From a candidate division WOR-3 bacterium (GTDB lineage Bacteria; Hydrothermota; Tepidihabitantia; Tepidihabitantales; Tepidihabitantaceae): a stretch of 61,080 nucleotides of DNA. Made by a program: the position numbers and the translations under genes. The number at the start of each line of letters is the position of its first letter. Position 1 is the stretch's first letter. Shown in pieces: positions 8,241-13,868 of this stretch. Location of the stretch: assembly GCA_016867815.1 (NCBI GenBank), contig VGIR01000008.1, positions 1 through 61,080 on the forward strand. Reading direction: 5' to 3'. The notes beneath the pieces are model-generated. The model ran no database searches. It was not told the DNA's origin and saw only the letters and a program-made list of their open reading frames with translations.

Positions 8241-8268
8241 TTGACTTGGCCAAGGTGAACACTATGCT
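8241..8268 (+). promoter_or_regulatory. Promoter of the sigma54-type activator gene
   Basis: TTGACT (8241-8246), 16-base spacer, TATGCT (8263-8268). The predicted transcript starts about 9 bases before ATG 8284, so the leader is very short. Confidence 0.6.
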
Positions 8269-8283
8269 GACCGCAGGTACGGC

Positions 8284-10965
8284 ATGAGTGGCGCAAACGG
8301 AGTACGAGACAAGCTACAGGCCCTGCGCGCGCGGGTAACGGCGGCTACTACCCCGGCTGAGCGCGTCAATTCCAAGCTGGAGCTGGCGGAGGAACTCTGG
8401 CACCGAGACCCGGTGGCCGCGCGACCGCTGTTCGAAGAGGTGGTTGCCGAAGCTGAAGCGGCGGGACTTGCGCCCAGAGCTGGCCGCGCCGCCTCCATCC
8501 TCTGCGAAATGCTGCGGCATGCCGGTGACCTGGAAGGCAGCGCTCGATACGCGGAACTCCTGCTCAGAGATGCGGACCGTTCGGGCAAACGAGATGACCG
8601 TGCCTGTGCGCTCAACCTGGTCGGTCTGATTCACCAGGAACGCGGGGAGCTGGACCAGGCCCTCGCCTGCTTCGAGGAGTTCCTGCGGCTCAGTCGGGAG
8701 ATCGGTTTCAAGAGGGGAGAGCAGCCGGCCCTGAACCAGCTCGCCGGCGTCCATGCGCTGCAGGGCGAGTTGGACAAGGCGCTCGGATACTATCAGCAGG
8801 CCCTGAGACTGACTGAGGAATCGAGCGACTTCTATGCCCGGGCGCTCCAGTTCCACAACGTCGGCTGGACTCTGGAGGCGATGGGCCGTTGGGCCGAGGC
8901 CACCGAGCACTTCCACCGCGCCGTCGCGCTCTGCGAGGAGCACGACAACCGCGACCTGCTGCTGGCCTGTCGGATGGCGCTGGGCGAGCTGGCTCTGAAG
9001 CGTTCGGACTACGACAACGCCGCCCTGGTGTTCCGCCATGTCATCGATGCGGCGCGCGAGATGAACCACTCGGGAGGGGTCTACCGCGAGGCGCTCTCGA
9101 ACCTGGGCTGGACGTACTTCCGGAATGGAGACCTGGCCCGGGCTGAGGAGACGCTGGCCGAGGCCGCGCGGCTGAGCCATGCTTCTGAAGACCGCTACCA
9201 GATTGCGACCTTCGGATGCCGCCGCGCCGAACTGGCACTCGCCCAGGGAAGACTCGATTCGGCCCGCGACCTGCTGGTCGAGGCCGCGCGTCAGGCATCG
9301 GCCCTGAAGCTGCGCAAGGAGCAAGGCGAGGTGCTGCGCGTCGAGGCGCTCCTCTCCGCGGCCCGTTCCGATGCAGGCCCGGCCCTCGATCTTTTCGCGC
9401 GCGCCGAGGCCGCGCAAGAACCGCTCGGGGACACGTACGAACTCGCCCAGGCCCGGCTGCAGCACGGGCGCCTGCTCTTTGAGCTCGAGCGAACGGCAGA
9501 GGCCCTGCCCCTGCTGCAAAACGCGGCCCGGACGTTCCGCCGCCTCGCCGTCGTCGCCGAAGCCGAAGAGGCGGGCCGGCTCTTGTACCGGATTGAGGTA
9601 CGCTCCGACCGCGACGCCGCCCTGCTTCAGGGGCTGTTCGGTATTGCCGCTCTGGGGCTTGTCCCGGAGCTCTTCATGGAACGCGCACTCTTCCTGCTCT
9701 GCGACAACCTCCGGTTCGAGCACGGCGCTGTCCTTCTGGATGGCCGGCCGGTCGCACTCAGGGGCAGGCCGGACCAGACACAAATCCCCGACCCTCGGAC
9801 GCCCCTCACCCAGTCCGACCTTGCCCTGTTCCTGCCGGTGAAGAAGGACCGTCGTCTTCTCGGTTCCCTCTGGCTGGGTCGTGGCCAGCCGCTTTCGGAA
9901 CGCGTCGACCGGGGTCTGCTGGAACTGGTCTCCCGCGCTCTCGCGCCGGAGTTCCAGAAACTTCTGGAACTGAAGAAGGTCGAAGCCGGCGGCGCGCCGG
10001 AGGTTCCCGGCCTGCGCTTTCGCGGCGTGGTTGGCAGCAACCCCGAAGTCCTCGACCTGCTCAATCTCGTCCCGCGCGTGGCCGCAACCCCCGTGCCGGT
10101 GCTGATACGGGGCGAGAGCGGCTCGGGCAAGGAACTCATTGCCCGGGCCCTGCACGATTCCGGCCCTCGCGCCGAACGGCCGTTTGTCACCGTCAACTGC
10201 GCGGCCGTGCCCGAGAACCTGCTCGAGGCGGAATTCTTCGGGGTCGAGGAGGGCGCGGCCACCGGCGTTGCCGCGCGGCCGGGCAAGTTCGAACTGGCCG
10301 ATACCGGGACGATCTTCCTCGATGAGATCGCGGACATGAGCCCGGCGCTGCAGGCAAGGCTGCTGCGTGCCATCGAAGACAAGACGATTACGCGGGTCGG
10401 CGGCTCCGGGGAGAAGCAGGTTGACGTCCGGGTCATCGCGGCCACCCATGCGGACCTGGACCTGCGCGAGCGCCAGGGTTTGTTCCGGCGCGACCTGCTC
10501 TACCGTCTCAACACGGTCCAGTTCCTGCTGCCGCCGCTGCGCCGGCGCCGCGAAGACCTGCCGGCGCTCACCGGCTACTTCATCGCCCGTACCGCCCAGG
10601 AATACTGCCGGCCCGTGCTCCGGGCAAGCGAAGCGGTCCTGGCCCTGTTCGCCACGTTTTCCTGGCCCGGGAACATCCGTCAGCTTCAGCACGTCATCGA
10701 ACGGGCCGTCATCCTCGCCTCCGGCCACAGGCTCGAGATTGCCGACCTTCCGCCCGAATTGAGACAGGCTCAGTTGGTGACAGCGGCGCCACCGGCCCCG
10801 GCCACGCGCGACGACCAGCGCAAGGTCGCCGACGAAGCAGAGCGGACCTGGCTGCTCAAGGCGATCGAGAGATCCCCCGACAACATGACCGAAGCCGCCA
10901 GGCTCAGCGGGTACAGCCGGGCTCAGTTCTATCGTCTGCTCCGCAAGCACCACCTCGGAGAATAG
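8284..10965 (+). CDS. TPR-containing sigma54-type AAA+ transcription activator
   Basis: A bacterial enhancer-binding protein. Residues of about 10-420 are a TPR array, probably sensing a protein partner. About 450-590 is a weak GAF-like domain. The AAA+ core follows, with Walker A GESGSGKE at 610, Walker B IFLDE near 674, and SWPGNIRQLQ. A Fis-type HTH ends the protein (MTEAARLSGYSRAQFYRLL). The sigma54-contact loop, normally GAFTGA, is GAATGV here (657-662). The loop's Phe is important for sigma54 contact in known activators, so contact may be altered. Three dyads and a -24/-12 promoter lie just downstream and are the obvious targets. No phosphoacceptor receiver domain is present. Confidence 0.9.
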   Translation: MSGANGVRDKLQALRARVTAATTPAERVNSKLELAEELWHRDPVAARPLFEEVVAEAEAAGLAPRAGRAASILCEMLRHAGDLEGSARYAELLLRDADRSGKRDDRACALNLVGLIHQERGELDQALACFEEFLRLSREIGFKRGEQPALNQLAGVHALQGELDKALGYYQQALRLTEESSDFYARALQFHNVGWTLEAMGRWAEATEHFHRAVALCEEHDNRDLLLACRMALGELALKRSDYDNAALVFRHVIDAAREMNHSGGVYREALSNLGWTYFRNGDLARAEETLAEAARLSHASEDRYQIATFGCRRAELALAQGRLDSARDLLVEAARQASALKLRKEQGEVLRVEALLSAARSDAGPALDLFARAEAAQEPLGDTYELAQARLQHGRLLFELERTAEALPLLQNAARTFRRLAVVAEAEEAGRLLYRIEVRSDRDAALLQGLFGIAALGLVPELFMERALFLLCDNLRFEHGAVLLDGRPVALRGRPDQTQIPDPRTPLTQSDLALFLPVKKDRRLLGSLWLGRGQPLSERVDRGLLELVSRALAPEFQKLLELKKVEAGGAPEVPGLRFRGVVGSNPEVLDLLNLVPRVAATPVPVLIRGESGSGKELIARALHDSGPRAERPFVTVNCAAVPENLLEAEFFGVEEGAATGVAARPGKFELADTGTIFLDEIADMSPALQARLLRAIEDKTITRVGGSGEKQVDVRVIAATHADLDLRERQGLFRRDLLYRLNTVQFLLPPLRRRREDLPALTGYFIARTAQEYCRPVLRASEAVLALFATFSWPGNIRQLQHVIERAVILASGHRLEIADLPPELRQAQLVTAAPPAPATRDDQRKVADEAERTWLLKAIERSPDNMTEAARLSGYSRAQFYRLLRKHHLGE

Positions 10966-11036: not shown

Positions 11037-11056
11037 CTGTCTCACTAGTGAGACAG
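11037..11056. promoter_or_regulatory. Dyad operator 1, perfect 20-bp palindrome
   Basis: CTGTCTCACTAGTGAGACAG is a perfect palindrome. Its core TGTCTC-N6-GAGACA recurs twice downstream. The centre lies about 209 bases upstream of the predicted sigma54 start near 11256, a normal enhancer distance. Confidence 0.75.
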
Positions 11057-11076
11057 TGTCTCATCAGCGAGACACT
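11055..11076. promoter_or_regulatory. Dyad operator 2
   Basis: AGTGTCTC and GAGACACT arms, 8 bp each, flank six bases. The centre is 19 bases (about two helical turns) from operator 1, so two activator dimers would bind the same face of the DNA. Confidence 0.7.
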
Positions 11077-11138
11077 ATCACCAAGTCAACCTAAGTCAGG
11101 CAGAACATAGCCTTATAACGTGGGCAACTTCGAAGTGA

Positions 11139-11158
11139 CTGTCTCATTCACGAGACAG
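11139..11158. promoter_or_regulatory. Dyad operator 3
   Basis: CTGTCTC-N6-GAGACAG, 7-bp arms with the same core as operators 1 and 2. The centre is about 107 bases upstream of the predicted sigma54 transcription start. Confidence 0.7.
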
Positions 11159-11229
11159 ATGATTAGGCGGTCTCTTGCTCATTGCGGCTATGATATTGAG
11201 ATAAGCGTAGTTAGCGCTACAGCGAGATG

Positions 11230-11245
11230 CGGCACGGATCATGCA
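11230..11245 (+). promoter_or_regulatory. Sigma54 (-24/-12) promoter
   Basis: CGGCACGGATCATGCA matches the sigma54 consensus TGGCACG-N4-TTGCA at ten of twelve defined positions. The invariant GG (11231-11232) and GC (11243-11244) are correctly spaced. The predicted start is near 11256. Confidence 0.65.
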
Positions 11246-11260
11246 CTCGTGAGAACTGGA

Positions 11261-11431
11261 ATGAAGAGACTAGTATCGGTGGTTCTGGCCGATGTCTACA
11301 ATGACTTCGACTGCCTGCGCGTCACCGGCATGTTGGCGCGATTTTGGTGGGTAGGATGCCAGCCCTGCACGGGCATCCTGCAGACGAAAAGAACAAAAGG
11401 GTGCGGCGGCATCGCCGCACCCTGGAAATGA
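11261..11431 (+). CDS. Possible 56-residue small protein in the sigma54 transcript
   Basis: ATG 11261 lies about five bases after the predicted sigma54 transcription start and opens a 56-codon frame. The peptide has a hydrophobic, Trp-containing middle (MLARFWWVGCQPC) and a Cys/Gly-rich end (KGCGGIAAPWK). Two strong hairpins (11353-11379 and 11399-11422) lie inside the frame, which argues equally for a structured RNA. No ribosome site is evident. I do not recognise it. Confidence 0.25.
   Translation: MKRLVSVVLADVYNDFDCLRVTGMLARFWWVGCQPCTGILQTKRTKGCGGIAAPWK
11353..11379 (+). other. RNA hairpin 1 in the sigma54 leader
   Basis: AGGATGCC (11353-11360) pairs with GGCATCCT (11372-11379) across an 11-base loop. 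It is one of two tandem hairpins between the -24/-12 promoter and the gene at 11493. Confidence 0.5.
11399..11422 (+). terminator. Strong GC hairpin upstream of the unknown gene
   Basis: GGGTGCGGCG (11399-11408) pairs perfectly with CGCCGCACCC (11413-11422) over a GCAT loop. An A-rich stretch precedes it and no T run follows. It could end a small RNA or act as an attenuator before the gene at 11493. Confidence 0.5.
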
Positions 11432-11492
11432 GGAGACTGTGACCAGCTTAGCTCTCAATGACTATGCATCCAGTTTGGGGCGAGGGGAAGAG

Positions 11493-11993
11493 ATGAAGTA
11501 CCTCATGCCGCTGCGGACCACGGAGTATGTCGACGTGGTCGCCCGGGCCGCGGAGCTCGGAATCCGGGCTCCGGTCGGGATAGCGCTCCTGCCCGGGAAC
11601 TTCATGACAGCGGCGAGCGCGGCCGAACTCCGCTACCATGAAGCGGCGCCGCACCTGCGGTCGGCCTGGCGGAGCATCGGGCTCATTGACGGCGGTCCCT
11701 ATCGTGGACCGCGCGAGCATGCGGCCGGAGCGGGCGGTGCCTTGGACCCGAAGGCTTCGCTCGTAGTCTTCTTCGGCTCCGGTCTGCGCACCAGCCCGGC
11801 CCGGCTGATCACACTAGCTTTCGGCATGATTGTTTCCGTCCTTACGCTGCGCCCCGACTGCGAGGGTTCCCGGGAGATCAGGCTCGATGCCGTGGTCGAA
11901 CGGCCGGACGGCAGCTATGCGTGCTTTGAATACCGGGGCGACGGCTATGAGCTCTTCGCCCTGGCCCAGGCGGTGCGAGAGACCTGGACGTAG
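11493..11993 (+). CDS. Unknown protein downstream of the sigma54-type promoter
   Basis: A 166-residue protein I do not recognise. ATG 11493 is preferred because GAGGGG precedes it by five bases. GTG 11439, also behind an AGGAG, would add 18 residues. The middle (SLVVFFGSGLRTSPARLITLAFGMIVSVLTLRP) is hydrophobic enough for one membrane-associated helix. The C-terminal part has beta-rich character (IRLDAVVERPDGSYACFEYRGDG). It is the first clear gene after the -24/-12 promoter and three dyads, so it is the likely regulated target. A hairpin at 12038-12076 ends the unit. Confidence 0.55.
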   Translation: MKYLMPLRTTEYVDVVARAAELGIRAPVGIALLPGNFMTAASAAELRYHEAAPHLRSAWRSIGLIDGGPYRGPREHAAGAGGALDPKASLVVFFGSGLRTSPARLITLAFGMIVSVLTLRPDCEGSREIRLDAVVERPDGSYACFEYRGDGYELFALAQAVRETWT

Positions 11994-12037: not shown

Positions 12038-12076
12038 GGCCCGGCCGGCACCTACGCCTGGGCTGCCGGCCGGGCC
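12038..12076 (+). terminator. Terminator-like 13-bp hairpin
   Basis: GGCCCGGCCGGCA (12038-12050) pairs perfectly with TGCCGGCCGGGCC (12064-12076) about 45 bases after the unknown gene. It lacks a T tract, like most hairpins here. Confidence 0.5.
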
Positions 12077-12332: not shown

Positions 12333-13868
12333 ATGCGAAGGAAGCTGACAATGCTCCTTGCGCTCGCAGGGCTGCTCACGACGGCCCTGTCGGTGACCTG
12401 GGGTCCCGCTGCGGGGATCACCAACAACAGGCTCGAAAACGTCACGTACAGCAGCAACGCCCACAAGGTCGTCTACGGTCAGGACGGCGTAGGACACTTG
12501 GTGTGGTTTGACAACGGCGGCGGAGTGGGGGCGAGCGCGGTCTACTACAAGCGCTACTATCCCAAGACGGGCTGGACAAGCGAGCTGAAGCTGAACAACA
12601 ACGGCGCTTATCCCGCGATTGCGCTCGACGCCAACGGCAGAGACATCCACGTTGTCTGGTCGGGCTACAAGAAGGTCGGAAGCACGAACTTCCACATTCT
12701 CTACCAGAAGTGTGTACCCGGAAAGTCAAGCACCGGTGGCTGGGTCGGCAATCCGACTGACCTCTGTGACAACATCACTGGTCATTCCCACGCGTATCCG
12801 GCTGCGGCCTGCGGACCAAACGGCCAGGTTGTGGTAACCTGGATGGAATCCTGGGGAACCGGAGCGGAACTGATGCGGACATACTGCTTCCGGGAGTTCA
12901 TGAATGGAGCGTGGCAGCCTCAGCAGCAGATCGAGGAGCCGATACCAAGTTATCGGTGGAACCCGTCCATCGCCACATTCGGCAGCGGAAGCGTGTTTGT
13001 GGCCTACTACGGCAGCACTTCGCTGGAACCCAGGGATGAATTTCACGTCTACGTGAACGAACGTTTGGGGACCACATGGCAGGGATGGCAGAACGTGACG
13101 AGTTCGGTAGGCTATCCGGACTCCTTCATAACTCCGCACATTGAGGTCGACCCAGCGACCGGTAATCCTCACGTTGTATGCCACAGTTACTCGATAAGTG
13201 TGTCAGGAAGCGACACGACCAGATACTACCACATCTACCATGCCTTCCGGAGCGGCGGCACATGGTCGATTCCCGAGATGATATCGGACGGCGAGGCCAT
13301 CGCCGATGCCTCCCCGAGCATGGACTTTGGCGCAGACGGAACAGCCCACGCCATCTGGAAACAGGCGGTTCCAGACCGCGCCGTGGAATACAGCTTCCGT
13401 GACCCGACTACCGGCGTTTGGGTAGTACCGACTTCGGTCACCAGCAGCGACGATCTCTCATTCTACAGCCCCAGTCTGACGGTTGGCCCCGGAGGCGTTT
13501 TGTACGGGGTCTGGACAAGATACGATGCCAGTGCCAAGTACGCCTACCAGATCTGGGGCAGCAATACGGGGAGCTCGAGCGGCGGCCAAGCCGGCCCGAG
13601 CGCGATGGCCAATGGGGTAGCGCTTGACGTCTCGCCCAATCCGGTTACCCGCGGAATGCTGGTTAGCTACGGCTTGCCGGCAGCGGGCAACGTTTCGCTG
13701 CGGCTCTACGATGTGAGCGGCGTCTTGGTGAAGACGGTGGATTGCGGGCAGCAGTCGTCAGGCAACCACACCGTCTCAGTTTCGAGGCAGGGCCTCGCGC
13801 GGGGCGCGTACGTCCTCAAACTCGACACCGGCGTCGGCAGCGTGACCCGGAAGGTCGTTGTTGAGTAG
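12333..13868 (+). CDS. Secreted beta-propeller-like protein with T9SS-type sorting tail
   Basis: A 511-residue exported protein. ATG 12333 follows a very strong ribosome site (GGAGGAAAGG) and is followed by a signal peptide (RRKLTMLLALAGLLTTAL). A longer frame from 12255 is not needed. The body has repeated motifs of sialidase-like propellers, with recurring short patterns such as GQDGVGHLVWF, ANGRDIHVVWSG and GADGTAHAIWK. The last 75 residues are a T9SS type A/FlgD-like tail: DVSPNPV, then SLRLYDVSGVLVKTV, ending GAYVLKLDTG and KVVVE. The ligand is unknown. It has its own terminator. Confidence 0.75.
   Translation: MRRKLTMLLALAGLLTTALSVTWGPAAGITNNRLENVTYSSNAHKVVYGQDGVGHLVWFDNGGGVGASAVYYKRYYPKTGWTSELKLNNNGAYPAIALDANGRDIHVVWSGYKKVGSTNFHILYQKCVPGKSSTGGWVGNPTDLCDNITGHSHAYPAAACGPNGQVVVTWMESWGTGAELMRTYCFREFMNGAWQPQQQIEEPIPSYRWNPSIATFGSGSVFVAYYGSTSLEPRDEFHVYVNERLGTTWQGWQNVTSSVGYPDSFITPHIEVDPATGNPHVVCHSYSISVSGSDTTRYYHIYHAFRSGGTWSIPEMISDGEAIADASPSMDFGADGTAHAIWKQAVPDRAVEYSFRDPTTGVWVVPTSVTSSDDLSFYSPSLTVGPGGVLYGVWTRYDASAKYAYQIWGSNTGSSSGGQAGPSAMANGVALDVSPNPVTRGMLVSYGLPAAGNVSLRLYDVSGVLVKTVDCGQQSSGNHTVSVSRQGLARGAYVLKLDTGVGSVTRKVVVE

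Follow-up and report, generated by a model that had tools for sequence, protein, structure and literature searches.

The window, the whole 61,080-nucleotide stretch of WOR-3 DNA analysed here, contains a unit that probably belongs to a family of WOR-3 sigma54 switches, each self-contained. Sigma54 regulation of the unit is strongly indicated. The features are as follows.

8241..8268, + strand: putative activator promoter, sigma70-like (TTGACT-N16-TATGCT), 15 bp 5' of the ATG, in a conserved block
8284..10965, + strand: activator gene, with TPR repeats, a weak GAF-like domain, a sigma54-interaction AAA+ domain (loop GAATGV) and a probable Fis-type HTH (Pfam)
11037..11056, no strand: candidate enhancer dyad 1, a perfect 20-bp palindrome with TGTCTC-N6-GAGACA at 11038-11055
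11057..11074, no strand: candidate enhancer dyad 2, exact TGTCTC-N6-GAGACA, 19 bp after dyad 1
11140..11157, no strand: candidate enhancer dyad 3, exact, starting 90 bp upstream of the -24 box
11230..11245, + strand: predicted -24/-12 (sigma54) promoter CGGCACGGATCATGCA, start predicted near 11256
11256..11438, + strand: structured leader RNA; GGTGGG and the hairpin at its end (GGGTGCGG...CCGCACCC, 11398-11423) are conserved
11439..11993, + strand: target gene of an uncharacterised family, 184 aa from GTG (166 aa from ATG 11493)
12038..12076, + strand: 13-bp hairpin, rich in G+C and lacking a T run, preceding a surface-protein gene

The sequence-only reading had placed three copies of TGTCTC-N6-GAGACA directly 3' of the TPR/AAA+ activator gene, one of them within a perfect 20-bp palindrome, with centres 209, 190 and 107 bp upstream of the predicted start at 11256. 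All of this was borne out; the copies are exact and begin at 11038, 11057 and 11140. In the 3.37 Mb genome of this bacterium, no exact copy was found beyond the three. Dyads with N6 and one mismatch occurred at four further places, and one exact N7 version was present elsewhere. Pairs of like dyads in the region were equalled by 0/200 dinucleotide shuffles.

The same reading had called a strong sigma54 match. The site is indeed present at 11230-11245; taken alone, it is merely moderately unlikely by chance, as 7/200 shuffles matched its score. Both the position and the sequence of CGGCACGGATCATGCA were conserved in relatives, and it is from this conservation that the promoter call draws its weight. 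The genome also contains rpoN, whose presence had been proposed as a check (PF04552, 169 bits). Its RpoN has a canonical-looking N-terminal activator-contact region and an RpoN box.

Related units were collected from the same GTDB family, giving 27 regulator genes (18 at genus level and nine at family level). The genome of the window has three more activator copies (C89, C14 and C36, 61-63% alike), and the close relatives searched had at most eight activator matches per genome. In the 27 units, the order was activator, dyads, -24/-12 site and then a short gene recognisable in most; a few had weak dyads. Dyads and the -24/-12 motif adjoined homologous regulators and the family of the gene called at 11493, so the conservation check proposed earlier gave a positive answer, and the proposed single unit of activator, enhancer, promoter and target recurs across about 27 related units.

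The geometry was conserved as well. The 90-bp spacing from dyad 3 to the -24 box was kept across the family. At 13/19 automatically called promoters, the last dyad, with at least 5/6 arm bases matching, began 88-96 bp before the -24 box, against 9% in a null from shuffles (p ~4e-10); eight more promoters, placed by eye from aligned sequence, are outside this count. The -24/-12 matches of the nine family-level units were equalled by at most 15/200 shuffles. Among broader-family activators that had no local dyads, the promoter was also absent in nearly all. The close tandem pair of dyads was seen again in some paralogues. A layout of pair, ~82 bp, single site, ~90 bp and promoter was common to C8, G003:C31 and G001:C203, and G002:C16 and G002:C83 had the same layout with ~73 bp instead of ~82 bp. 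The C14/C61 subgroup had a weak -12 element (GTGT, GTGA), and G002:C66, G002:C74 and G010:C128 fitted the dyad geometry poorly.

The activator protein was analysed with Pfam. Its AAA+ domain matched PF00158 at 198 bits (cut-off, 20.2), and the Walker motifs GESGSGKE and GTIFLDEI were present. A TPR_12 match was found, and the GAF-like stretch between TPR and AAA+ matched weakly. The C-terminal HTH matched HTH_8 (PF02954) with E 4e-4 and 20.5 bits, slightly below the 22-bit cut-off, and aligned with the conserved SRAQFYRLLRKH of relatives; its recognition helix residues are S-RAQ-F. The AAA-HTH half matched the PADLOC RtcR_PspF2 model at 3.5e-90. When plasmids were searched by tblastn with the activator, the matches listed were to the AAA+ domain only and covered at most ~42% of the protein. 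Upstream of the activator gene, a GCTTGACTTGG...TATGCTGA block was common to most genus-level paralogues, and several family members had a similar TTGAC...TATGCT. TTGACT-N16-TATGCT is kept before most genus-level activators, so sigma54 is probably not required to make the activator. Its transcript is predicted to be nearly leaderless and sigma54-independent.

The half-sites of the dyads differed among paralogues (GTCTC, GTGYC, GTGCC and CTGCC), and the recognition helices differed with them. GTCTC went with the helix residues RAQ, GTGTC/GTGCC with RSQ, GTGCC with RTH, RTN and most RRH, and CTGCC with ERH. With half-sites transcribed by hand and units that are related by descent and so not independent, helix residue 2 (Ala or not) predicted half-site base 3 in 26/26 units (13/13 vs 0/13, p 2e-7), and helix residue 3 (Gln or not) predicted base 4 in 24/26 (16/17 vs 1/9, p 5e-5). 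G002:C66 was left out of this test because its dyads were not safely readable. On a tree that excluded the HTH, helix types were scattered, with several separate changes of type, two of them the clearest: G003:C72 (RAQ, GTCTC) was inside an RSQ/RRH clade, and G002:C83 (RSQ, GTGTC) was among ERH/RRH units, beside an ERH/CTGCC sister. These comparisons establish an association: the half-sites appear to follow two recognition-helix residues and not the regulator tree.

The target gene probably starts at GTG 11439, which is preceded by GAGG, rather than at ATG 11493. The sequence-only reading had described a 166-residue protein of no known family; the lack of a family held, with no match in Pfam, NCBIfam, PADLOC or PHROGs, and the length is revised to a likelier 184 residues. 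Members of the family recur after most genus-level activators of the same kind, with the reading frame conserved. A structure model built from a deeper alignment was confident (pLDDT 86.7, pTM 0.84). It had no match in the PDB at E <= 0.001, and its lone structural match was an unnamed viral protein (A0A7U3HSL9, TM 0.63, E 2.8e-5). No target relatives were found in phages, plasmids or IMG/VR. Outside the genus, one homologue was found, in the same GTDB family. This stand-alone relative (G007:C1:1413737-1414228) has no activator, dyads or -24/-12 site and is downstream of a likely tRNA gene. The hairpin at 12038..12076 is possibly the end of the unit.

The target is not the same in every unit: some carry a member of the 11439 family, others a PD-(D/E)XK-like or a small membrane protein. 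C89 and G001:C175 have the PD-(D/E)XK-like protein in place of the 11439 family, a weak assignment; the C89 target matched REase_AHJR-like PF18743 at E 0.0024 and 17.9 bits, below the 26.1-bit cut-off. In several family-level units (G006, G009, G012, G013 and G016), the target is a ~66-residue single-span membrane protein, and related peptides follow the activators of G010, G008 and G015. This single-span membrane peptide is probably the older target of the switch.

Some units and their surroundings had further features. An in-frame TAG interrupts the C14 copy of the target (L068, G000:C14:42944-43609) shortly before its end, and this copy looks degraded. The target gene at G002:C16:62462-63008 is split into two frames and is a second likely decaying copy. 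A secreted protein gene follows many units (12333-13868 in the window; G000:C14, C36; G002:C37, C83, C16, C66; G003:C72). These proteins are of differing subtypes, and several end in a sorting-type tail; Por_Secre_tail was tested in the window copy (12333-13868) only.

Two tandem hairpins expected in the transcript were found at ~11353-11379 and 11398-11423. A 56-residue Cys/Trp peptide had also been suggested. Its ORF exists (11261-11431); relatives lose both start and frame, and the peptide was rejected as a conserved product. The leader RNA itself is kept in seven units, with GGTGGG and the terminal GGGTGCGG/CCGCACCC hairpin common to them. Its covariation signal was weak with these seven sequences. 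No match was found in Rfam. In 18 family genomes, the strong matches were only the seven units used for building the model, and the rest had E 1.8e-4 or worse. The terminal hairpin was ruled out as a genome-wide repeat, as it occurs once in its own genome. Because the leader precedes two different targets, it would be part of the promoter module or a product in its own right.

That the non-coding leader is the main product and the downstream gene secondary is unlikely. It is kept before different targets, or before none recognised (G002:C74), and folds better than shuffles (z -2.9); in Desulfovibrio vulgaris, ncRNAs are reported downstream of sigma54 regulators (PMC4641369). However, the terminal hairpin lacks a T run, and C14-type units have no leader at all, the target coming directly after the promoter. 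G002:C74 itself has dyads, a promoter and the leader RNA, with no recognisable target gene after them. Two other explanations concern the dyads and the likeness of units. Lying directly 3' of the activator gene, and each able to form a hairpin, the dyads might be bound by a different regulator or act as RNA hairpins at which the activator transcript ends; this is very improbable, as T runs are absent, the three copies keep a fixed distance to the promoter and the half-sites track the activator's own recognition helix. Recent duplication only, with no selection on a working switch, is the reading we regard as almost certainly wrong. The units are paralogues, ~59-72% alike within the genus, but spacing and symmetry stay while half-site letters change, and family members at ~40% identity still have dyads and promoter.

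The contact loop of the activator bears on a further alternative. The loop reads GAATGV and lacks the aromatic third residue of GAFTGA, so under a strict motif test the activator fails one defining feature of sigma54 enhancer-binding proteins. Relatives had G[ATV]ATG[VA] wherever the motif was read, and other activators in the same genome retain GAFTGA or GSFTGA. Without the loop Phe, sigma54 activation usually fails (PMC3162934, PMC2941729), and in PspF, Tyr was the sole Phe substitute with activity retained (PMC2941729). A regulator that no longer makes sigma54 contact and acts via the dyads on a sigma70 promoter, like TyrR or HupR, would fit these observations. We consider it quite improbable, because the distance between -24/-12 sites and dyads is fixed family-wide, and the nearest precedent for the loop, GVATGV in DVUA0100 of D. 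vulgaris, likewise belongs to a regulator with a predicted, unproven sigma54 regulon (PMC4641369). Judged by promoter, dyads and AAA+ domain, the activator would work like an enhancer-binding protein with an unorthodox loop.

On the preferred reading of a sigma54 switch, the activator would be made from its sigma70-type promoter and hence not depend on its own output. The TPR/GAF part may receive a signal. The Fis-type HTH would bind the three dyads, as the tracking of dyad sequence by helix residues across paralogues suggests. From family knowledge and the conserved geometry, the AAA+ ring would loop to sigma54 polymerase at 11230-11245 and drive opening with ATP, giving a transcript that includes the structured leader as well as the 184-residue target. 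Units may multiply by duplication, change recognition helix and dyads together, and acquire different targets; such joint change would keep sister units from cross-talk. We give an even chance to the full proposal, namely lineage-specific, mutually insulated sigma54 switches formed by whole-unit duplication (activator, three-site enhancer, promoter, leader RNA and target), with two to three helix residues rewritten together with the matching half-site bases, new targets plugged in, and all driven by a clade with a working contact loop free of Phe.

In the collection of papers searched, none on sigma-54 in WOR-3 was found. It is rare for paralogous regulators to come as a block that also holds their sites, their promoter and their target. 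The ~27 natural variants suggest a rule for half-site choice by a Fis-type recognition helix, in which residue 2 goes with base 3 and residue 3 goes with base 4, and such a rule could give orthogonal sigma54 switches. A family-wide GAATGV-type loop together with intact -24/-12 promoters calls into question the rule requiring a loop phenylalanine.

Like NtrC, NorR, PspF and RtcR, the WOR-3 activator has an AAA+ sigma54-interaction domain, a probable Fis-type HTH and an adjoining target, with dyads ~100-210 bp upstream of a -24/-12 promoter. Unlike them, it has TPR and a weak GAF sensor, GAATGV instead of GAFTGA, and several paralogous units per genome with differing dyads, a conserved leader RNA and uncharacterised targets. 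Its AAA-HTH half resembles that of RtcR (CARF-AAA-HTH; PADLOC RtcR_PspF2), whereas its N terminus consists of TPR repeats with no CARF identified, and no rtcBA was recognised among the targets. DVUA0100 resembles the WOR-3 activator in its loop (GVATGV vs GAATGV), a long N-terminal region and predicted sigma54 targets adjoining its gene; unlike the WOR-3 activator, it regulates type III secretion operons (PMC4641369).
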